A stretch of 64,000 nucleotides of DNA, taken from the NCBI GenBank assembly GCA_026419785.1, contig JAODTK010003721.1, positions 434,001-498,000 on the forward strand, given 5' to 3'. The position numbers and the translations under genes were made by a program. This stretch comes from Sclerodactyla briareus (taxonomy: Eukaryota; Echinodermata; Holothuroidea; Dendrochirotida; Sclerodactylidae). Each line of letters opens with the position of its first letter. Positions within the stretch are counted from its first letter, which is position 1. Shown in pieces: positions 8,706 through 49,563 of this stretch. The notes beneath the pieces are model-generated. The model made no database searches. It worked only from the letters and a program-made list of their open reading frames with translations, and was not told where the DNA came from.

Positions 8706-9234
8706 CGTGCACGGTTTAAGGGCTTAAACAGACCATAGCTCTTTTCATCTTCTTCTCCGAGTCCTCCGATTAACTAAACATAAGTCAGTATATGTTCTGC
8801 ATCGATAGGAAGCCATGGCGTCGCCAAGGGAGGGGGAGGAGGGGGGCAGGGGGAGCACACCCCCTCGAAAACCTGAGCCCCCGTGTCACCCTCCCCCACA
8901 CCCGATGAAATTTTTCAGTATTTTTCATCATTCAGATACCAAGTGTGAAATAGATTTGGCCAACAGAAAAATATCACAAGAAAGGCAGTAATTGTGTCAA
9001 CTTTGCACTAAAAAGTGAAACATTCTGTGCTCGGTGTTAACGTGGTGGATTCCGCCTCGTTGCCTCTCCCATTATCTCCGCACACTCTGTGAAAATTTCC
9101 GCCTCATTGGGACCTCTAACTGAACATATATGGAAGTGAAATTATAACAAACTACATTATCATGGACCTTCAAAAACTACAATCAACCTCTTTTGATGAG
9201 CTAATCTTTAGCCTCTGGTCCATTTCATCCTCCT

Positions 9235-9835
9235 CGTACCACGGCGATCGGAAAATACAGTAGCTAGGCTATCAGAATTGGATTTTCAAAACGCATGTTG
9301 TTCAGGTAATTGTACTCGAAAGTTCCATGCTCTCTCGGGCATGACGTCCATATCATGATTGGGACAGTAGAGCTGAAGCTAGCGAAAAATGGAGCCCAAT
9401 TTTTTTGGTGAGATCTGTTTCCGATGTGCCGGGAAAAACGGCAAAAATTTTCGCACTTCGCGCGCACTGTTGAACAATAGTATGGAGCACAAATTGTTTA
9501 ACATTCTAGCCAAAAAAATCAAAATCGGGGCAGCGATAAACCGAGGTTAGACGAAATTTTCCCCACCGTTACAAAATATTTGATTACAAAATGCCCAGAT
9601 TTGGAGCTCGGTACATGCAGCCTATCTAAAGCGCCGGCAAAGGTCATTCCGGTCATCTGGGGGGCTTGCGAAACCAACATTTTCTCGTACGCTCCGCGAC
9701 AACCAATGAGGGCGCTCGGCTTAGATGGTACTCTTGTCCTTCCCCTCCCCCCCACAAAGATGTCGTGCCCCCTTGGCCCCCTCCCCAGTATTTGTAAACA
9801 AGTCTGGTGACGCCACGTAGATGGCTCCATTGATT
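9235..9835 (-). repeat. Dispersed repeat 'F', minus-strand copy
   Basis: Its reverse complement aligns end to end with 44,470-45,060. Shared words, read in this copy's minus orientation, include TTTGTGCTCCA, TTTTTCCCGGCACAT, an 'agatctcacca-aaaaatt' stretch, CTGTCCCAATCATGATATG and a 'gcggagcgtacgagaaa' word. The two minus-strand frames of 67 and 103 codons fall inside the repeat and have no recognisable product. Confidence 0.85.
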
Positions 9836-19769: not shown

Positions 19770-21145
19770 ATGATAATCCATGACATCAAAGGTCTTATTT
19801 AAATACAATTCATTTTCCCGGTCACCATGAAACCTTACTTGGCATCACCAGACGGTTCAACTCCAACATCACAGAGTATGGAAGAGATTCTTTGGAGGTC
19901 TTATATGCTGCTAACACCTTCTGTTCTGACACTGAAAACTAATTAAACTTTCTTGCAGGTTCCCATTCAGCACCTGGGCAGGGGGAACACAGTAGAATTG
20001 GGTCTTTCCTCAAACACACTAGGGACGGCAAATCTGGGAGATTTTATTAGTAATCTATATATTGTGTCTTTTAGCTCTGTTTTATTCTTTTCTCAGCAGC
20101 TGTGTTTTGCTGAAAGGGGGACTCAGCAAAACACTACCAGCTGATGGACTTTGGCACAGCAGGGACACGAGCTTGGGTGAGACGTAGACAAGGACGAACT
20201 ACAAAGGGTCCAACACACTAGATAATCCTGACCTCAAAGGTAACATCTTAGCATTACCTGGAACTATTAACCTTCTCCACTGCATGTCATGATGCAATCA
20301 GTCAGAGGTTCAAAATCCAATCACAGAGTTATGGCCGAGATATTCAGAGGTCACAAGTATTGCGAGATAGCTGTTGACTATCCAAAACTTTCTTGCAACT
20401 TCCCCATCAGCACCTGGGCAGGGGGGAAACTAGAAGTTGAATCTTACTTCTAACACACCAGGACGAGTTGACCAATTCTGGGAGATTTAAACTACATATC
20501 ATGTTTTTTACCTCCTGTTTTATTTTTTTCTGCAGAGGTGTTTGCTGAAGGGCTCAGCCAAACACTAAACCAGCTGATGGACTTTGGCACAGCAGGGACA
20601 CGAGCTGGGTGAGCTACTCAGTAGGACAAGGAACGACTACCAAGGGCTCCAACACACTAGATAAATCCATGACCTCAAAGGTAATATCCTTAAGCATAAC
20701 TGTCACTATTAAAAAATCCTTCAACTGATCGTCATGAATAGCAATCAGTCCAGACGGTTCAACTCCAACATCACAGAGTGGGCAGAGATTATTCCGAGGT
20801 CACATGTATGTATGTGAGATATCTGTCTGAATAATCCAAACTTTCTTGAAACTCCCCATTCAAGCCCTGGGCAGGGGGGAAACTAGAAGTTGAATCTTAC
20901 TTCTAACACACACACCAGGAACGGTTTAAACCATTCTGGGAGATTAACTATCATTGACTCATAGTTTTTGACCTCCTGTTTATTTTTTTCTGCAGATGTG
21001 TTTTGCTGAAGGGCTCAGCCAAACACTAAACCAGCTGATGGACTTTGGCCGGCGGACAAACCTGGCTGTGGGTCAGATACCAGGAACAAGATGACTACCA
21101 AGGACTCTGACACACTGGATAAATCCATGACCTTACATTACAGGT
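19770..21145 (+). repeat. Three tandem ~440-bp units, each with an exon-like segment
   Basis: Units repeat at 436 and 460 bp spacing. Each contains 'cggttcaactccaacatcac', a 'cacctgggcagggggga' word, a pyrimidine tract ending in CAG (20,099; 20,535; 20,995), then GCTGAAGGGCTCAGC-like sequence, CTGATGGACTTTGGC and a donor-like end (CTCAAAG|GTAA at 20,239 and 20,680; CAG|GTAG at 21,143). In unit 2 the frame 20,538-20,609 reads EGLSQTLNQLMDFGTAGTR before a TGA. The open frames are short, and units 1 and 3 are shifted. The layout suggests duplication of an intron-exon segment, but the product is unknown. Confidence 0.7.
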
Positions 21146-29940: not shown

Positions 29941-30159
29941 CTAATTAAGTAGTCTAATTTGCATAATTCTGCGATATTTTTGTGAGCCTAATAGAAGCAT
30001 CAGTTACATGACAAATGTTTGAAACAAAGTTCTGTTGAAATTTCGTTGTCTCAATTTTGATGATCAGATATCCTTAGATATTCCTGATATATTGAGTGGG
30101 TTTACTTCGATATTTCGTGTAGATGCCTTCCTGCTCGATTCATTCCCGTTCATACAAAT

Positions 30160-30565
30160 AGTCATGTGTGTATCATTTCATAATTCCTATGAATAAACAT
30201 GCAGGCTTGTTGGTAACAGAAGTCATAGGTGTATCATTCATAATTTCATGAATAAACATGCAGGGTTGTATCAACTAGCCTATGTGTTAGCATTGTCATA
30301 ATTCCATGAATAAACATGCAGGCTTGTTTATACATTTGCCAGTATGTGGATCATTTCATAATATATGAATAAACCCCCAATGCAGGCTTGTTTATACAAT
30401 TGCCATATGTGTATCATTTCATAATTATATGAAAAAATGCAGGGTTGCTTATACATTTAATAGTCATATGTCTCATTTTCATATTCCATGAATAAACATG
30501 ACAGGGGCTTGTGTATAAATTGGTCATAGGTGTATCTGTCATTTCATATTTCCTAGGGAATAAAC
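30160..30565. repeat. ~60-bp tandem repeat, about 7 units
   Basis: Each unit contains 'tgtgtatcatttcataatt', 'ccatgaataaacatgcagg' and 'cttgtttatacaattg'. Units are diverged by substitutions and 1-2 bp indels. Confidence 0.9.
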
Positions 30566-30569
30566 AGAG

Positions 30570-37799: not shown

Positions 37800-39390
37800 C
37801 AGGGCATGTAATGTTACATTCTTTGTTATCAATTTTGTTCACAGATTGACTTTAGCATTCAGGTAAACTACCAACAATTGTAAAATGCATTCTGCTCCGC
37901 ACTGGATTGTATTGGGGCTGGCAGAGGCAGACCTGCTAAAGGTATGACCATTAACATGTGTCAGAGAGTTTTGAAAAAGTAATCTATGCCTCCATGAATT
38001 TAGGTGAAAGGGAGGGGAATACATGCTTCCCCCCTAAACAATTAAAAGGAAAATTTACTAGAGGAACAACCAGTAAAGTGTTTATTACTGTTATATTAAA
38101 GTAGAGCAACTTTCGGAGAGTCAGCATGACCTCAGTCTGCATCCCTTCGGCACCTAATTAGAAGTTCGTACACATATGGATGGCAGAGAAGAAGAAAAGA
38201 AACGCACAAACCTTTCAATCCAATCATCAGTGGTTTGTTCACACAGTGTATTACAGTATGATAGACACATGAACTGTAATGAAATTGTCTGCCCCTGGAT
38301 TGAACATAAATACTTAGTGCGTTAATCAAGGCGGGCGGGTTATTCAACTGATCAGGCAAGACCGGGGGTAATTAAAGCGATGACAAGGCGCAGCTTTGAG
38401 TGCATCCCGCGGTTAGAATTAACCCCCGAGAAAGAGAAAGGCATTTTCTGTAGATGATGAAATAAAATGGGATGTTGATTAAACCCGTTCATTCATACAA
38501 CGAGAATTGGTTGGTATTGCATCAAATGGCCATGTGTTTACCACTTTACGATAATAAGAACCCCCGACTTGTAGAGAGTATGGTATATGTAGGGAATCAA
38601 ATAACAACAACGATATGAGCGTCTCTCAAATCCACCTGGAACGATAGGCGCGCACAAAAGCGTTGTGTTCTAGGTTTACAAATACGCGTAGAAATAATTC
38701 TCAACTCATACGCATCCTTGTGAGCAACAAGCATTTTACATGCGGTGAAACACAATTCCATCGCGCGTGTATTTTGCTCTACTGCCCGTGATGATACATG
38801 CACGTTCTATTCAAAACGTTTTCAAATGCTTGGGCTTTTTTTTTGATGGTAATCCCGCCCAATTTGTGACATAAATGCACAATGGATCCCTGTCCATAGC
38901 CAATAAGTGAGTAGCGCGTTCCATTTTTAAGGTGAGAAAATATGCGGGTGTGAAGTACAATAATCAAAATTCATACACCAGTTAACCACCCGTGCTGATT
39001 TACTGTGCATTAAAACATTGCACCGTGCATTAACACTGAGCATTAATGCTGGTTAATGCACAGTCAGCTGACCGATTCAGCCAATCGCAGGGAGTAGTAC
39101 AGCCAAGTAGTGAAAGAACAATGCATGATAACATTCTCTCTCCAAAATTTTTAATATATGGAAACAGAGGTAAATTCTATAAATGGCAAATAAAACAATG
39201 GGTACATACCCAACCCAAAAAAAATTAGTACATAACTACAGAGAAAAGAGGGACTCTACCTGATGATGACATTCAATTACCTCTAAATTGTAAGTTATAC
39301 TGCAGATGCAGTTTGTCTGTACCTGTTGTTATGACCCACAGGCCTTCATATTAACGCAAGCTGATATGGTTCAACACTAGTGGTGTCCTT
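37800..39390. other. Anonymous stretch
   Basis: No gene recognised. The only structure noted is the inverted pair at 39,004-39,062. Confidence 0.4.
39004..39062. repeat. 10-bp inverted repeat TGTGCATTAA / TTAATGCACA
   Basis: Arms lie at 39,004-39,013 and 39,053-39,062, with further GTGCATTAA and GCATTAATGC words in the loop. A short dyad of unknown meaning. Confidence 0.75.
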
Positions 39391-39397
39391 TGACTGT

Positions 39398-39563
39398 TTA
39401 TATAGTTATGCTTGATATAGTATTAATAGGATGAAACTGTAGACAGACCTGGGTCCGTACTAGGTTACTCAGTCTATTCGTCAGAAGGCCAGATGTGTAT
39501 AACTTCCTGCTATGAAATGTAGCTACCAGCAGCTTCTCTCCATCCTTGGGATTCCTGGTGTTA
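39398..39563 (-). pseudogene. TRIM-NHL gene, C-terminal piece cut off by a transposon
   Basis: Read on the minus strand from the element boundary, this frame runs NTRNPKDGEKLLVATF, then HSRKLYTSGLL, to a TAA at 39,398-39,400 (55 codons). 'PKDGEKLLVA...KLY' is the usual closing strand of an NHL beta-propeller in TRIM proteins. It continues the propeller that stops at 47,506 on the far side of the 7.9-kb element, in the same strand and order. The true stop is uncertain because the main part has several frame breaks. Confidence 0.6.
39556..39563. repeat. Candidate target-site duplication, left copy (TGGTGTTA)
   Basis: An 8-bp word directly abutting the first subterminal repeat of the foldback element. 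The right flank has TGGTTGTTA, one T longer. Confidence 0.6.
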
Positions 39564-39885
39564 CAACCGATAATGAAGTAATCAACCGATAAGGAATCAC
39601 AACCGATAATGATTATAAAATGGACCGATAAGAATCATTAAACGATAATGATATAAAAATTGACCGATAAGAGTAACTTTTCAAAACCGATAATGAATCA
39701 TGGGGATAACCGATAATGAAGAGTAACAAATTTTCTTAACCGAAATGAATCACCAATTTGACGATAATGCAGTAATTTTTTATGAATCACAACGATAATT
39801 AAATGATTAAAATTTGACCGAATATTAATGAATCACTAAACCGATAATGCAATAAAAATTGGACGATAATGAAGTACTTTTTAAT
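39564..39885. repeat. Left subterminal tandem repeats (ACCGATAATGA)n
   Basis: About 15 diverged copies of ACCGATAATGA separated by 'agtaac', 'atcac' and 'aaaatttg' spacers, giving a 15-20 bp period. Inverted equivalent: 47,222-47,490. Confidence 0.9.
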
Positions 39886-41676
39886 TTTTTCGAGGAATGG
39901 GTGGGGGGAGGGGAGGGGGTGGGTCACGGAAACCGTAACCATAACTACGTCAAACGAGGGTCCGATCGGGCTAAAATAGTTCCAATCGAGTTCTTATGCC
40001 AATTCTATCCGACAGTATTTTTTTTCAAACCTTTTACGGTCCCCGAGTACGCAAAGATTTAAAATGGCTGACAAGATGGGGGATTGCAGAAAAAAAATGG
40101 AACCGGGTCATTAGGATCCGTGAAATCCGAATTGAAGGTTCAGGTGAGAAATTACACTTCATCGATTATGACAAAACTCGATTTACATAGTTTCTAGGTC
40201 AAATTAACAGTGCCTCACAAGTAGTTTTCAGGCGGGATATGAGGCCAGGGAAGCTTCAAACGGCGTTTCGGAATTTATCTTAGCGACCAAGAGAATATAA
40301 CAACGTCGGACATATATGATGAGATTCAGCTATACCCCGAGTTCATTTTTGTGTCACTCAAAAAGCAAGATTCCTAAGCTGCCGTCGCTTATACATCTCA
40401 AAAAAATGAACAAGATATATGGGAAATGAATTGCGCCATTGTGTTTGCCGCCCCAAACAGCCTCAGTTCGGTTCTTTTATTTTGATCTTGAGTGGCAACC
40501 TGTCGGAAAACCATAGTGCCAAATCATGGCCCGCCCGCCACGTTGTGTGTGGTGTGTGTGTGTTTGGGGGTGGGGGGGGGGGTAACCACCCGAACCGTCG
40601 CGACCGGGTGTGTGGGGTCAACCTCCCCCCCCCAACTTGTGGCAGCAAATGGGAAATACGCCAATAGGCAAAGCAATGACAGTTTGCACGCGCCTCTGAA
40701 CCTCCGCCAATTTATAGGCTTGTAGGCTATCGGGGGCATGTAGGAAGGACCTATCGCTGAGTTAGTTGGCAAAAATACACTGGTCGGAATGTTCAATCCT
40801 CAGCTCACACATTGAATGGGCCTGTAATCATTGCGCAATATAAATGCATCCCGTTGAAATAAGACTTTGGGTATAGGTGTGAACGTCAAATGCATGCATT
40901 CAAATTATTACAATATCAAAACTGAGTCTTCGTAGAAAATTTGAATTTTGAGGTGTGATGCATGGGTCTGTACCAGAGTTGCCGCCGTTTTGATAGGCAT
41001 TCGCCGATACGAGATAATTCTCATAAATTTTGCTCCGCGGCCGGAACATACGCCCCCGTAATCGTGACACATGGATAGTGTTCGATGGCGGCCCATATGC
41101 CCGAAATGTCATTTGCATCGATCTGTGGTGTCAAAATGGAATGAAAAAAAACATTTCTTGTACGAATGCCCTTGACCACCCATTCTGCGCTCCGTTAGAT
41201 GTCTGCGCTTTTCGTAGGCAATAACGCCTGCGGGTTCCGACAACGCTTTTTTCTCTAACAGGAATGGATTATGATATAAGTATGTCGTGGTGAGTCCATT
41301 GGTTCTGGTTCGTACGAGACGTAACGGTAATCGATAAAAAGATCGATGTCCGTGGAACTGATACGGTATGGAAGCGATATAGAATTAGAAGGTGGGGAGA
41401 ACATTTGTGATGTATTGGTTTTCTGAAGTTTGTGGACGTCATCGTGCTATCATTAGCTGCACACAAAGTTAATTTCATAAACTACCATATCTTCATCACA
41501 TTATAGTCCGCTCAAAATAGCCTATACCACGCCTACGCCATCGGGGCATATCATCAAAACATGCTGTAGTAACCCGATCCTCCCAAAAACTGCAATTTGT
41601 TCATTCTGGAAGTGTAACCCTCCATGAGCATCCAATCTCAAGAACAGTGCTCATCAACATGTTGAACATAACGTTT

Positions 41677-41937
41677 TTAAGGATACATAAACTCCGATTC
41701 CAGAAGTTTCGTGATGCTGGTCACGGAATCTAGAATTGGTCGGAATAGGTGGGTTGTGCAGTGAAGTGCTAATACAAGACTTTCAATTACGAGGGAAGCG
41801 TACCCCATACCCATGGAAGTCTTGTGTTAGCACCAAGGAGCACATCCACACACACCTTTAAATTTTTTTTTCCAACCATTCTAGGTTCCGTAACCAGCAC
41901 CACGAAACTTCCCAGGAATCGAGTTATGATCCCTTAA
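41677..41937. mobile_element. 261-bp near-palindromic MITE with TTAA ends
   Basis: The left arm starts TTAAGGATACATAAACTCCG and continues through 'aagtttcgtgatgctgg', 'acggaatctagaa' and 'aatacaagact' to about 41,790. The right arm, from about 41,812, is its reverse complement and ends ATCGAGTTATGATCCCTTAA. Outer TTAA on both sides matches the target site of piggyBac-like and some Kolobok-like transposons, so this is probably a non-autonomous hairpin derivative. It has no coding capacity and lies inside the 7.9-kb foldback element. Confidence 0.8.
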
Positions 41938-42890
41938 CACTCGGAGGAGCCCAGTGTCCTCCAGTAATTGCTTCCATAGAGTAAACTTCTCATTGTACCA
42001 AGTGAAAGGAGCTGAGACATCCATACCAGGAGAACACGTAGCCATTTTTGCCGATTTTTCAGACGTATTTATAATAATAACGCTGATCGGATTGGATTAA
42101 ACTCATTCGGTCATTCAATCACACGCACTTCGATTCTTCGCGAAAAAAAATTCTTAATTACTTATCGACCAGGTAAACTTTACCAATATGACTGCGGCGC
42201 TATTTCTGTATGAAGGGCTATATGACAAAAGTCCGAATATGAATCCCTTTTCTGCACATGAAAGTGTTAATAAATCTGACTGTATGGACAGCATGACAGG
42301 ATGTTTTATATTATTAGGTCAATTCGCTATATAAAAGACTGACAGGTCAGGGGGCATACTGGGAAACCGTAGGAAAACATAAATCTGTCAATTTGCCAGT
42401 CGGGGTCATATGCCACAAATTAGATTTCCGGAGTAGAGCATTTTTGGGGATATCATGGTATTGGGTTGTAGACGCTGTTCGTCGTCTCCGCCAGTAGCGC
42501 TTGCGCAACAACTCTCAAAACGCTTCGTTTCCGATTGATTAAAATTAGGACATTTTCTGCCCTAATAGAATAGTGAGTTCGAAAGTGGGCGCCGCTGCGT
42601 AACTGCTGTCCTTTACGCGCTTGTTGGATGCTGAAATATCAAGTTTGTCCCGAATGGCAAGGAATTGGTGGGGGTAGACGATATAGTTAGCCTATAGAGT
42701 TCCTGAATCCTGTCGCCCCAATTTCCGTTTGTGGAGGACTAGTTATGTGATTTTCCTAACATTGCCAGATTTGAATTAGAAATGCTTGGTTCCAGTTGTC
42801 AGTGGCCTCGCCAGAGATCTAGGCGAGGGAGGGGGAGGGGTAGTAGGCACAATGAAATTCGCAATTCAAGAAATGTAGTGTATTGTTTTG

Positions 42891-42911
42891 TTTTTTTTTT
42901 TTTTTTTTTTT
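42891..42911. repeat. (T)21 homopolymer
   Basis: Twenty-one T residues, preceded by TTGTTTTG and followed by GTTTTT. A minus-strand retroposon tail is possible, but nothing adjacent supports it. Confidence 0.9.
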
Positions 42912-44469
42912 GTTTTTAACTCAGAAGCGTAGAATCATATAACTTAATTGTTGTTGAAGAATAGACAGCAAGAAATGTTCTTTCCACTGTCGGATAAGGT
43001 GCGGCGTATATACGGTGCTGTCCATTCTCTATATCGATTTATCACATAGGGGGGGGGAAAAAACCCCCCCCATGGCCGCTTCCGGTGACACTGTCGTTTT
43101 TTCTACAATCTTGGACAAAACTACTTGGAACACCTACAGGTTAGTAAGGTGATGTCATCCTGATCCCCTTTCCCCGTAAAAAGTTTGCATGACAGGCCTC
43201 AAACACAGCATAATCCCGTTGTTCAACATTTTATACCTTGGACATGTATTGATGATCATTGTTGCAGTAAGCGAAATCAGTGGGGTTCCAAGAGTTTTGG
43301 CCATATTGAGGGCTGCTGCAGATAAAAATTGTTCTGGAACCAAATGGTTTTATGGTATGTTGTGTTAGTTGTTATGCGTTCTTATTCTCATGAAAGTTTA
43401 TATGTATTTTCTCTAAAAATTTACGTCCAACTACTATTCCCGAAGTGACCGAAGGGAGCAAGCAGCAACGAGGTTGGTTGAGATTTCACATCTATACCGG
43501 ATTCAGGGACAACAATGACAGAACACTAAATCGATGACTCAAATTATTATCCAGTCTCCCCGTTGAAAATACAGTAATTATATGTGGTGTGACAGTTCGA
43601 CGGGTTTATGCGAAACAGTCAGTATATGTGACTTCCCTGTTAGTTAGGTCCGTGTACTTTCCGTGGGTGAGAGTTGTTTAAATAAAAAATTAGAAAAAAA
43701 CGGACAACAGTCCGTTTCACACGGTATAGCTATTTGGGAATTTCGTTCGTTCAATGCATATTTCATCGATTGCGGTGTTGGATTTTCCCATTATGAAGTG
43801 AAAACGGAAAGAACCCATTTGCCAGACACCCCCCAAGTGATTCCATGTCATCATTTTGAAAGTGCATACAGGGGCTTATAACATAAAAATTCTCAGGGGG
43901 GTGTGAACATTTTTGAGGGACCGACAAGATTTGCGTGAGACGATTATTATTATCGGGTTTTGTACCGAGGCGGCGCCGTGCTGTCGGGAGGATTACCCTG
44001 GTTCCACCGACTGGGGGCCATCGTTCCCCCCTCCCTTTGGAAATTTTTGCGAAAACCTGAACCCCTCAGACGCAAAAATGGTGCTATACTAGTACGATAT
44101 TCTATCATGTATTACCTATTAAAAATATTCGTTTTTTTCTGCCAACATATTTTTTCCCGAAGAACTGTGTGTTAAGATAACGTGTCAAAACTCGGTCTGT
44201 ACCTAGCTACATGAATAACCTGTGCACTCTTATTTGGTATCATATTAAGATTACTAGGTTGCTGTACGCTGCATATGAATTATGAAGTGACTTTTCGAAG
44301 TGGCTTGGACCTAAATTCAACAAATGATGGACTGGTACATGGAAGACTGAGGGAAGGAAGCACTCACATAATGGTCTTGCATAGCCCATCATAGGCGATA
44401 CCGATATTAATAATGTGCGATGGGGCTGAATACTTGGAACACATGTCCATCATATTTAATCAATTTTCC

Positions 44470-45060
44470 CACACCAGTGGCGCACTAGACTTTTCAAACT
44501 AGGAGGCCATAAAAGGGGGGGGGGCAGGGGGGGCACAGGAATTTTGTGGGGTGCGGCACGAGAACTATCTGAGCGTAGCGCCCCATAGGTGGCGCGGAGC
44601 GTACAAAGAAAGAAATTTTGGTTGCGCAAGCCGGCCCAGATGGCCGCGCAACCTCTCCCGAGTGTTGAGGCTGCATGTACCAAGCGTTCAAATCGGCATT
44701 TTGTGATCACCAAATTCTATAATCGGTGAAAATTGTTAATATTTGCAGACCTCAGTCTTTGATGCCAGGACTTTTTGGCCAGAATGTTCACTTAATTTGT
44801 GCTCCACATACTGTTCACCAGGTGCGCGATCGGCGGCGTATAAGTTTGTCGTAATTTTTCGGGGTTTTCCCGGCACATTTCTGAGGAGCAGGATCTCACC
44901 AGAAAAATTGTGACATTTCAGCTATCTCAGCTCAACTGTCCCAACCATGATATGACGTCAGAAGCAGTTACCTGGGGAAAAAACATCCGTTGAAAATTGA
45001 AGCAGTCTGGTAGCCTAAGCTACTGCAGTCCAAATCGGCTGTGAGTCGAGGGAGGGAGTA
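44470..45060 (+). repeat. Dispersed repeat 'F', plus-strand copy inside the foldback element
   Basis: Aligns along its length with the reverse complement of 9235-9835. Order here: a G-rich segment, AGCGTAGCGCCCCATAGGTG, 'gcggagcgtacaaag', TTTGTGCTCCACATACTGTT, 'ttttcccggcacat', 'ggatctcaccagaaaaatt' and CTGTCCCAACCATGATATGA. It was either inserted into, or captured by, the larger element. Confidence 0.85.
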
Positions 45061-45506
45061 GAAAACGAACGGAGGGCTAAAGGGTTTAGTAATTAAAAAG
45101 AGGTGGACTGTAGTTCTCACCGGTCACAATGATGAATGTTTGTGGATAATTCCAGTATTTCACCCTCACGAATATGTATAAGCTAGGGGGCAATGAGACA
45201 GAAATTTCTCATAGAGCTTGCGCGGAGATGACGGGAAAAGCGAGGAACAAAATCACACTACTAGTACACTCGCGAAGCCCCCGAATTTTTCCAATTTTTA
45301 TTAGCATCGAGGCGAAATTTGGCACAATTATGCCTTTCTTGTGATATTTTTTGTTGTGTTTGCAAAGATTATTCAAACTGGTAGTCGAATACTGACTACA
45401 GCATTTTTAAATATAGTCGGAGTAATGGTATATTTCAATCAATTTTTCACCTGACTCGAGTGGAGGACGCTTTTGTCGCCAGAGAGCCAGACTTCTGATT
45501 TTCACA

Positions 45507-45561
45507 GGGGGGGGGTTCACCACCCCCCCCCACCACCCCCCCCCCCACCCCCCCCCCCCTC
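45507..45561. repeat. G-run/C-run pair
   Basis: G(10), a short spacer, then about 40 nearly pure C. The C-run could fold back on the G-run. Confidence 0.85.
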
Positions 45562-47221
45562 CGTATTTACGCAACGGATGCATTAGGGTTTATGTAAGTT
45601 CAAAGGATTTGGGTTTGTGAGGAGGGCATATGATTGAGCATACCTAGATTTGTATAGCTCTCAGTTGACAGTCTTACAACCCACATCTACTTCTGGCACA
45701 CACCTGGGCCTCGTGCCGCTAATCATTGTGGGGGAAAGGAAATTATGATAGCCACGAGTTCACCCTTCGATTACGGGGCCACTCTTTTAGATTCAGCTGT
45801 TGGATTCACGGTCCAAGATATACAAAAGGCATCATCTCAACAAAGCCACCAAATGATGTCAATGTTGTAACGGAGCTTGGTGGATTCAGAAGCAGGGGCG
45901 GCGCCACACGGATTTCATGGAAGACAGGTGGCAAGATTTCCCCGACGATTCCCCCAATGAAATTGTTCGGATTTTAGCGCTGCGAAGTGCACCTCACCCT
46001 ATACTACACACAAACCTCCTTTTCATGTATTGAATTTTCAAACTTCATAATTTTGTTCATAATTTTTTGCTCTTTTTCCTTCGTCTCTCACAATCTCCCT
46101 TGTGTCCTTCTCCCCGATCCCACCCTCCCGACGCTCCCCGACACCCTCTCGATTTTTCCCCGAGGGGGGGTCACTGCGAGCTCCCCCCGAGAAGGGGCTG
46201 TCCCCCCCCTCCACCGCTGGCGTCGCCCCGGTCAAGAAGTTCACTAGCCTGCTAGAGCAGAGATATGGTACTGGAGGGAAATTCCCAAAGTATTCTTAGG
46301 GCCAAAATTCGTTTATAGGCTTAGGCCAAGCTCTACTTGTGTATTTGGACCGAGTACGTCCGAACTTATTCTGACGTACGTATTATACATATTGTCCAAT
46401 GGAAGCGTTCGGGGAGTGGAATGCCCAAACGGCCGGTTCAACACGCAAAATCGAAGTGATGGACACTTTGTCCACAACAAATATGGGGCCGTTTCAAGTC
46501 ACCCATGCTTTCACTCTTTGATAACTCGACGGTGGCCGAGAAAGGTCGATCCTAAAAGATCAGACCGCCCATCCTGTCAAAATTAAAAAAGAACGGAACC
46601 GTGGATAGTTTGGGCGGCGAACACAATGGCGCAATTCATTTTCCCTCACCGTGTTGTTCGTTATTTCAGATATGAGGCGAGGGTAGCTTGGAAATCTAGC
46701 ATTTATGAGTGACTGTAATCGGTTAAATGCAATATGCTATGAGCTTTGGGTTTATAGCTCATTGATCCGCGTGCTGAGATGGCATAAATATGTCCGAATT
46801 GGGTATTTTCACTCGGTCCCTGGAGGCGAGATTAAAAAAGCTGTGAAGCATGTCCTATCCTCAAACGCTGAAATAGCATTTTTAACAATATTGAATAGCA
46901 ACTATCCGAATAGGAGCATGTCCCAAATAAAAGAATGCAAATGGGCATCACGGGGGGGACCACGCACTTCGATTCTACGGTCCGAATTACAGGGGTTCAC
47001 AATATCTGTTTTGAAATCCGGCCACTTTGATTTTTTTGCACACTCGCCGTTAAGGGTTGTAAAAATACATAGTCGGATAGAAATTGCATTGAGAAATCGA
47101 TTGGAAAACCATTTTCAGTCCGATCTGACCTCGTTTGACGGAGGTTAGGTATGGTACGGTTTCCGTGACCCCACCCCCCCCCCCTCCCCCCACCCATTTC
47201 TCGAAAAAAATGGAAAAAACA

Positions 47222-47490
47222 GTTACTTCATTATCGGTCAAATTTCGTATCATTATCGGTTAGTGATCATAAAAAAGTTACTTCATTATCGGTGTCAAAT
47301 TGGTGATTCATATCGGTAAGAAAAATGTGACTTCTACGGTGTTAGACCCATGGATTCATTATCGGTTTGTAAAGTTACTTCATTAACGGTCAATTTTATA
47401 TCATTATCGGTTAGTGATTCATTATCGGTCAATTTTATATCATTATCCGTTAGTGATTCATTATCGGTTGGTTTACTCCATTATCGGTTG
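47222..47490. repeat. Right subterminal tandem repeats (TCATTATCGGT)n
   Basis: About 11 copies of TTATCGGT-type words at about 18-20 bp spacing, inverted relative to the left array. Spacers alternate between 'tagtgattca' and 'caattttatatca'. Confidence 0.9.
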
Positions 47491-47496
47491 TAAAAA

Positions 47497-47505
47497 TGGT
47501 TGTTA
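47497..47505. repeat. Candidate target-site duplication, right copy (TGGTTGTTA)
   Basis: Matches the left TGGTGTTA apart from one extra T. It directly abuts TRIM coding sequence on the minus strand. Confidence 0.6.
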
Positions 47506-49563
47506 TACACTGTGCATCCTATCTACCTTCCTGGCTGTCAGTAACTGACGACCATCTTGGACTGTACTGTGTGAGATACCCTCTCATGATTCATCCCCCA
47601 CACATGTAGATGTGGTAGTGCCTGTCAGTACACACACTCAAGGAACACAGCCCTCACCATCAGGTCTGGGAAAACTGATGGATACCTCAGCCTCCTCTCC
47701 CTCTATGACACTGCATATGATCTCTACCACCCCAATCACAGACAACAAAATGGTTGTCATGTACAGCTATATCTTTAGCCACCATGATTGATCTCAGGCA
47801 GCTTGATGGTACGACAGTAGTTAAACTGGTCATAAAGTACTAACACATCTCTTCACGTACCACCTACATAGATGTTGTTCATGCTGTCAGTGTAACAACA
47901 GGTTACCCCACAAGGCCAGTCGATGTCATATCTTCAATCGTTTCTCAATATTCACCATTGTGGTATCAAGAGGAAGACTGGGTTGGATGCATGCCACACA
48001 ATGTGCAGGAGGGGTGCTGTGCATGAATGACAGTAAAGGTATCTTCACCCTGCTATTTTCTGATCCTGCAGTACTTACTCCTACTGCTTTGTTAAAACTG
48101 TTATATGTGATTCATTCCACCCTGCCATCCCAGTAACCACTATATGACCATCATGATGTGGTTATATCCCATACCTCCCACCCCCTCCCAATCCCCTGTA
48201 TATCAACACCCCTTCTCATGCCTCTCTGTCATCCTTACCAGGCCTGATAACACAAATTGATCACTGACACCAGTTTTGGCCAGAGTTCCCAAATAACTAA
48301 ATTCCTTTCCTACATCTTCAATCAGTGTTTTCCCTGCTGATGTTATAGCCGGGAGAGACACTGTGCCTCCTCTGTCCAATCATGAGGGAGCCTTGTACTG
48401 CCAGGATGTTTCTGTAAAGTTCTCATACCGGTTCACTGTGTGGTTGCATGGTCAGCCACTCCCGAAGATCCTTTTCTCATTGTTGACTTGAGATGCCTTC
48501 ACATTCTCCTTATAGCGTGAGTCTCGATTCCAGCTTTTCTACTTAGCTGCACACTTGTCATCTCTAAGAATGTCACTGTGTAATCTATCCCTTCCACTGT
48601 TCCTCGATAACTATGCTCTTCTCTTTAAGATATTGTTGTATTTCCTTCAGTTTCTACATTTCTTCTTTTAGAACTACTTACCACGTCTCGAGTGCCTTCC
48701 TCTTCTTTGGATTATAACCTTGTTTCTTGTTTTTTTTCCAGGCATTTTCTGTCTCTCTCTGTCCATTCATAACTTTTTCTGATGATTCTCGATTTTGGAT
48801 CTCGCTTTCTCCATTTGCCTCTGACATTTGGCTGTGCCAGTGCCTTTGACGAACTCAGCCACTTCTTTGGGAGTTCATAGAGTATCTCTTCGCACTTTTC
48901 CAGCTCGGACATTGCAGTATTCACGTTTTTCTCTCTCAGCGATTGCTAGGATCTTCACGTAATGAGCCACATGACCTTAATGTTCTCCAAAAGTGAAATG
49001 CGACACAGATAGGGAGGTTTCCACATGTTTCACAGCACAACTGGGCAATGTTTTGACATGAACAGCACACCTTGGATTCGTCAGTGAGGGAGGTTGCACT
49101 TGATCCAGCGTAAGGCTTCTGACATCAATTGTACGAAGGTCCGAAGATGAGGTTCGATGTCCTCAACCATATTGTTGTTGAGATGAACTGGGTAGCACTG
49201 CTTGGCACAAGAAAGTCCTGCCACTTGCAAGCAGTAGCCCAGTGCTTCCTTCTGGTCTCTCACACCCCGTGGCACCTTTGCCATTGTCTTTCTTGTATGC
49301 TATCTGGCGTTGAAGAAATTTGAGGATGCTCTCGATGAAAAGTCAGCTGAAACCATCTACACCATAAGCTGGGATGCCAAAATTCTCATACAGACCGAGC
49401 GACAGTGAAGATTCTGTATTCTCCGCTATCACCATCTATAGACACTTCCTGCATTGACGATGCAAGCAGGGCAGTATCTTGGGGTCTTTCAAAGACTCTG
49501 AACAGACGTGAACATTGAAAAAAGTTCCTGATGTCACTTATCTTGCTTGAGGAGAAATGCCAT
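47506..49563 (-). pseudogene. TRIM/RBCC-NHL-type gene, frame-broken and interrupted at its 3' end
   Basis: A single-exon, minus-strand TRIM gene, probably encoding a cytoplasmic E3 ubiquitin ligase-type protein. From the ATG at 49,563: RING first half with HVCSESLKD and PKILPCLHRQCRKCL (C-x-H-x2-C-x2-C; about 49,435-49,520); RING end and linker FGIPAYGVDGF and KFLQRQIAYKKDNGKG (about 49,270-49,390); B-box-1-like LGYCLQVAGLSCAKQCYPVH (about 49,180-49,245); B-box-2-like SHFTFGEH-GHVAHY (about 48,960-49,010); a Lys/Glu-rich coiled coil (about 48,690-48,950); a segment with KTLIEDVGKEFSYLGTLA (about 48,270-48,340); and NHL propeller strands DSMNNIYVGG, RTIKLPEI and HDNHFVVCDWGG (47,600-47,930). 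There are at least six frame changes, many by one base, and the first RING Cys is kept only if one T is ignored. The last NHL strand lies beyond the 7.9-kb transposon at 39,398-39,563. Confidence 0.75.

Follow-up and report, generated by a model that had tools for sequence, protein, structure and literature searches.

A 64,000-nucleotide stretch of the genome of the sea cucumber Sclerodactyla briareus (GenBank assembly GCA_026419785.1, contig JAODTK010003721.1, positions 434,001 to 498,000; hereafter the window, to whose first base positions refer unless a contig is named) holds a TRIM gene in two pieces with a 7.9-kb inverted-repeat element between them. We consider it very probable that a non-autonomous foldback element inserted into the last coding stretch of this gene, and that the two flanks were formerly one gene. 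Most of the gene, from its 5' end onward (comprising RING, B-box region, coiled-coil-like region and C-terminal domain, ending ...DAQCITT), lies on the minus strand at 47,500–49,563, as placed by the Pfam RING match, relatives, frame-tolerant alignment and a profile match at 47,506–47,583. It is followed by the element at 39,559–47,495, by the 3' end of the gene (RNPKDGEKLLVATFHSRKLYTSGLL) at 39,479–39,558 on the minus strand, and by a 3' flank at 39,200–39,478 (minus) that is common to two neighbouring paralogues, so that the element sits about 25–30 residues before the end of the gene. An original prediction, made by a model from the letters of the window, had described this layout (minus-strand TRIM coding sequence from 49,563 to about 47,500, an inverted-repeat element, and a closing piece beyond it), and it was borne out by alignment and profile.

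For the two flanks, a C-terminal profile of the last 51 positions was built from 29 of 32 protein relatives (P0028 and P0030, which have differing ends, and the distant P0032 were left out), and compared with each of the 3,397 six-frame fragments in the window that have at least 12 residues. The relatives had been found with a query holding both halves of the gene, and the profile itself contained no window letters. The best match was the fragment at 39,401–39,634 (minus), with NPKDGEKLLVATFHSRKLY at 39,479–39,553 (E 2e-6, profile positions 26–50), and the second best was QDGRQLLTARKVD at 47,506–47,583 (minus; E 1e-4, positions 4–17), followed by a third fragment at E 0.35. Since profile parts 4–17 and 26–50 follow in profile order and lie on opposite sides of the element, they are arranged like a single gene interrupted by the element. 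Of the 24 relatives that have a Cys ahead of EKL, 23 show 9 residues between the two (10 in P0026; P0024 counted by the nearer Cys; 8 of 32 relatives lack the Cys), and the spacing was likewise 9 in the window when the flanks were joined and the shared CCA was counted once, which argues that no residue of the gene was lost. The last strand was therefore split off, rather than removed as had been proposed.

The species' own genome, as searched here, comprises 319 Mb in 3,171 contigs, in which the window is G000:C2311:434001-498000. The TRIM flank matched 28 places (25 candidates scored), with five genes besides that of the window on the same contig, at C2311 352,936, 372,104 and 399,834 (plus) and 510,046 and 526,391 (minus), and a second group on contig C3122. 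Counting the window copy at 481506, C2311 352936-528516 is a run of about 175 kb with six TRIM genes, three on the plus strand and then three on the minus strand. Fourteen paralogues were fetched (L045–L058), and compared with an upstream query that ended at 47,506, omitting the ten flank bases 47,496–47,505, and with a downstream query. BLAST matched both flanks side by side, in the same order and orientation, in 11 of the 14. For L045, L046, L050, L051, L056, L057 and L058, both alignments reached the junction with a gap of 3–6 bp between the matches and, since the upstream query stopped ten bases short of the element, this gap is the expected TAACAA; for L047, L048, L052 and L054, 19–33 bp lay between the matches because the alignments stopped short of the junction. 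L049, L053 and L055 gave no downstream-flank match by BLAST, and by eye their sequence continues through the same motif. The downstream query matched L047 over 332 bases (79%) and L048 over 310 bases (83%). The uninterrupted paralogues, together with the profile order, are the reason for regarding the flanks as once joined and the element as inserted between them. They support the central reading of the original prediction, an element inserted between flanks that had formed one gene.

The usual empty site in the paralogues reads GTATAACAACCATGGAAACAGAGGAGGGAGAGAAG with variations, and CCATGG is exact in 7 of the 14; the window junction, in gene sense, reads GTATAACAACCAT on one side of the element and CCAGGAATCCCAAGGATGGAGAGAAG on the other. 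From these empty sites and a family-wide test of other element copies, CCTGG at 39,554–39,558 and ATGG at 47,496–47,499 were assigned as the putative left and right copies of a target duplication, and CCATGG is likely the duplicated target, of which each side in the window lacks some bases. For the family-wide test, 21 loci (20 fetched copies and the window) were used, of which 13 were two-ended; loci in which one end was weak or missing (L029, L030, L036–L039, L041 and L042) were left out, the weak end calls L031, L035 and L040 were retained, and the comparison was made at eight lengths and by two measures. Flank agreement peaked at 6 bp, where left and right flanks shared 3.15 bases per pair and mispaired flanks 1.55 (0 of 5000 permutations), and was weaker at 5 bp (p 0.0024) and 8 bp (3.08 against 2.28, p 0.022); 3, 4, 7, 9 and 10 bp gave p >= 0.15 (at 9 bp, 2.23 against 2.53, p 0.83). 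By edit distance the widest gap was at 5 bp (1.31 against 2.61 for mispaired flanks), with p < 0.02 for 3 to 8 bp. At 6 bp, the flanks were identical in L025 (a run of C) and L028, one change apart in L024, L026 and L034, and in poor agreement in L033, L035, L040 and the window. Taken over the family, these values suggest that insertion duplicated about 6 bp. In L031 (G000:C2903) the bases outside the ends are GTGCTC and GAGCAC, inverted rather than direct; as one end call is weak, coincidence or a rearranged copy may explain this. The original prediction had read TGGTGTTA (39,556–39,563) and TGGTTGTTA (47,497–47,505) as direct repeats from a target duplication; the strings are present at those positions, and were rejected in that role, as the first is half element and TGTTA is the element's own end, conserved in other copies.

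The element is a non-autonomous foldback-type transposon of a multicopy family, and its description as a 7.9-kb foldback transposon was upheld by its arms, tandem repeats and relatives. The left terminal inverted repeat (arm type A, plus strand) spans 39,559–40,485 and the right one (arm type B, minus strand) 46,577–47,495, as defined by arm alignment and an arm tree; 39,561–40,485 and 46,577–47,493, each about 925 bp, are 67% alike in an alignment of about 1,000 columns (E 1.8e-89). The outer domain of the left arm (39,561–39,884, plus) is a tandem array of ACCGATAATGA... units, about 20 and 39 bp long, and that of the right arm (47,216–47,493, minus) holds the same repeats inverted. The family ends, taken from the aligned ends of other copies, are TGTTACAACCG...CGGTTGTAACA, and the right end here is CGGTTGTAAAA. 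An inverted repeat of about 67% over 260 bp lies in the left half of the element at 41,677–41,937, and is also found in L036, L038, L039 and L042. The element gave no sign of coding sequence: stop-free stretches of at least 55 residues numbered 58, against 37–60 in ten resampled sequences, and 20 of the 58 were compared with Pfam without a transposase match, two weak matches (E 0.092 and 0.045) being below the cut-off. The CpG ratio was 0.94 in the element and 0.60 in the remainder of the window, which fits a young insertion and may have other causes.

For the family, a search with the left 1,001 bases of the element (40 of 130 candidates scored) found at least 50 places on at least 32 contigs, the window's included, at 72–85% identity apart from the self-match. 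The other copies start TGTTACAACCGATAATG, their aligned ends converge on TGTTACAACCGATAATGAAGTAACCAACCGATAATGAATCACTAACC, and the outer tandem-repeat array recurs in them. Two-ended copies range from about 2.8 to 7.9 kb, with a colinear middle shortened by differing amounts, and each of the 10 copies with both arms typable has one arm of type A and one of type B. In a tree of 31 arm pieces, the two types were separated with support 1.000, each forming a star with long tips, and the window grouped with L042 (support 0.93). The window and L042 also have in common a 1.7-kb segment (43,868–45,597 in the window) that is absent from L028, L033, L036 and L039, which keep both its sides, and copy comparison suggests that it is probably a nested insertion; 880 bp of it recurs inverted at 8,925–9,786 of the window, at 66%.

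We propose that a member of this family, moved by a transposase encoded elsewhere, entered one TRIM gene of the tandem array in what would have been a single event, duplicating about 6 bp, probably CCATGG, and cutting the gene after ...CITT. The RING and the B-box region stay in place, as does most of the C-terminal domain, and the last 25–30 residues, the closing strand of that domain, are found 7.9 kb further downstream, outside the reading frame. A transcript would then enter the inverted repeat and give a protein that lacks the last strand, or none, so that the product may be unstable or absent. Several observations weigh against this account. The target duplication in the window is imperfect and scored poorly when flanks were compared across the family, the right end of the element reads TTTTACAACCG instead of TGTTACAACCG, and no transposase was found among the 20 of 58 stretches scanned. 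CCATGG forms the empty site in only half of the paralogues, an empty allele of the window's own gene was not seen, so that all empty sites come from paralogues, and the contig crosses a repeat, so that a misjoin is formally conceivable.

Such a misjoin, in which the repeat led the assembly to connect two different TRIM paralogues, would be favoured by a multicopy element, by TRIM genes in arrays and by noisy sequence. Two genes would then both have had to carry an element at the same codon, and none of the 14 other fetched TRIM loci is interrupted there (11 judged by BLAST and 3 by eye); what is left of a single target site flanks both sides of the element, and the 3' flank (closest to L047 and L048) and the gene body (closest to L045–L047) both have their nearest relatives on the same contig. 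We therefore regard an assembly chimera as very unlikely. Still less credence is given to the downstream piece being a TRIM fragment of separate origin or one carried by the element, for which loose C-terminal pieces are conceivable in a tandem array. The TRIM profile had no match at E 0.5 in the DNA around the other 20 element copies that were fetched (flanks of about 1 kb for many, one end for some), which makes cargo unlikely; the piece also runs into the 3' flank common to the neighbouring paralogues, and between the two halves no residue is missing or repeated. Insertion into a single, formerly continuous gene remains the preferred explanation.

For the identity of the gene, a stitched 705-residue query found 32 proteins at E <= 0.001 (among 7,996 candidates scored), with P0001 as the best; those named to species belong to two sea cucumbers, Apostichopus japonicus and Holothuria leucospilota. 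Of the 32, 27 span 95–99% of the query at 26–30% identity. An earlier protein search with a short stitched query gave nothing at E 0.001, phage records searched with the TRIM flank alone gave no match, and the whole window had no Rfam match at gathering scores. Frame-tolerant alignment placed the window gene at 49,563–47,507 against P0005 and at 49,477–47,507 against P0001, and scored 629–1294 for 15 TRIM loci against 74 for one shuffled control. One hand-stitched piece of the window matched the RING family zf-C3HC4 of Pfam (E 2e-6), and a second, from the B-box region, had no Pfam match. Among six relatives compared with Pfam, the RING was above cut-off in five and the B-box in three, with the B-box of the other three below it. 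The order of RING and then B-box that defines the TRIM family is thus indicated by the RING of the window piece and the B-box of three relatives. The label TRIM-NHL, used in the original prediction, did not hold up: none of the six relatives reached the Pfam cut-off for the C-terminal NHL repeats that define that subfamily (weak signal in two, E 0.019 and 0.032), and the label is best regarded as a guess at the fold. Holothurian TRIM56-like proteins (P0014 and P0016 of H. leucospilota, P0002–P0013 of A. japonicus) cover 98–99% of the query and have a closing strand of the same type around EKLL; they are continuous reading frames, whereas the window gene is split by the element.

Frames are broken in all of these loci. 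On the better template, all 15 TRIM loci needed 26–76 frameshifts (12.6–35.7 per kb), and in-frame stops on the better of two templates numbered 0–3 in 14 loci and 7 in the window gene, counts that are soft because the aligner may swap a stop for a frameshift at equal cost. On three templates the window gene had 7, 4 and 3 stops, and L052 reached 4 and 5; stops common to three templates numbered 2 in the window gene against 0–1 elsewhere, and those shared by two numbered 3, as in L047. Random substitution would be expected to produce about 8–15 stops at 10–20%, about 6 at 8.5% and about 1.5 at 2%. Element copies differed from their majority by 6–12% substitutions, 2–6% deletions and 2–8% insertions (15 copies spanning the 1.3-kb part used). 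Transitions were 76 of 251 single-copy changes (30%, clean context) and 74 of 231 shared changes (32%) in the element, where random error predicts about one third, and 104 of 288 (36%) and 475 of 753 (63%), respectively, in the TRIM paralogues. Frameshifts in every TRIM locus, few stops and no excess of single-copy transitions together suggest that much of the frame breakage is probably sequence error, largely uncorrected long-read error added to genuine differences between paralogues, and perhaps left because repeats are hard to polish; the true divergence of the element copies is then probably below the apparent value. Two points tell against uniform error: an exon frame in another part of the genome stays open for 70 residues, and substitution error at the 8.5% of the element predicts more stops than most TRIM loci have. 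An old pseudogene was considered and set aside, as frameshifts affect all 15 loci and broken frames alone are no sign of decay; the split gene may nevertheless have undergone some additional decay.

Two further repeats were observed in the window, a tandem repeat of about 460 bp in two to three copies, about 75–82% alike (19,772–21,133), and a minisatellite with 59/117-bp units (30,152–30,566).

The locus offers a before-and-after case, in which a tandem immune-type gene with a large insert in its last-strand codons stands beside sister genes free of it. It also documents a foldback family inserting into an echinoderm-like gene array, with ends and target size that can be used in a transposase search, and warns that frameshifts in this genome, absent better reads, should not be taken as pseudogene decay.

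The TU elements of sea urchins, which are echinoderms too, are the natural counterpart: they have inverted repeats, outer short tandem repeats and a variable middle, and the build appears similar as far as this general description goes. Their repeat unit of 15 bp and duplications of 8 bp would set them apart from the window family. The 5'-TG...CA-3' ends and duplications of about 6 bp are reminiscent of integrase-type insertion. A literature search for foldback elements in sea cucumber genomes, or for this family, found no title.

In the available part of one published description, foldbacks are characterised by long terminal inverted repeats with internal tandem repeats, a variable middle without open reading frames, and a target duplication (PMC4079207); the window element has all of these features. 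The same partial source records foldbacks in sea urchin, and assigns foldbacks mostly to the Mutator superfamily (PMC4079207). Mutator target duplications are given as 8–11 bp in the part of a second source that was available (PMC6446971), which the duplication of about 6 bp seen here does not match, with the reservation that indel noise blurs the lengths. That the family stands outside the superfamilies usually tied to foldbacks (Mutator and P), and was recently mobilised in an echinoderm genome by a different, perhaps undescribed, type of transposase, is a long shot on this analysis. Tetris of Drosophila virilis, as far as the excerpt describes it, resembles the window family in its long inverted repeats, internal tandem repeats and variable middle without open reading frames, and an autonomous copy was found in neither (PMC4079207). 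By the same description the two are set apart by their repeats, about 220 bp in Tetris and about 20 bp here, and by their target duplications, 8–10 bp in Tetris and about 6 bp here (PMC4079207).

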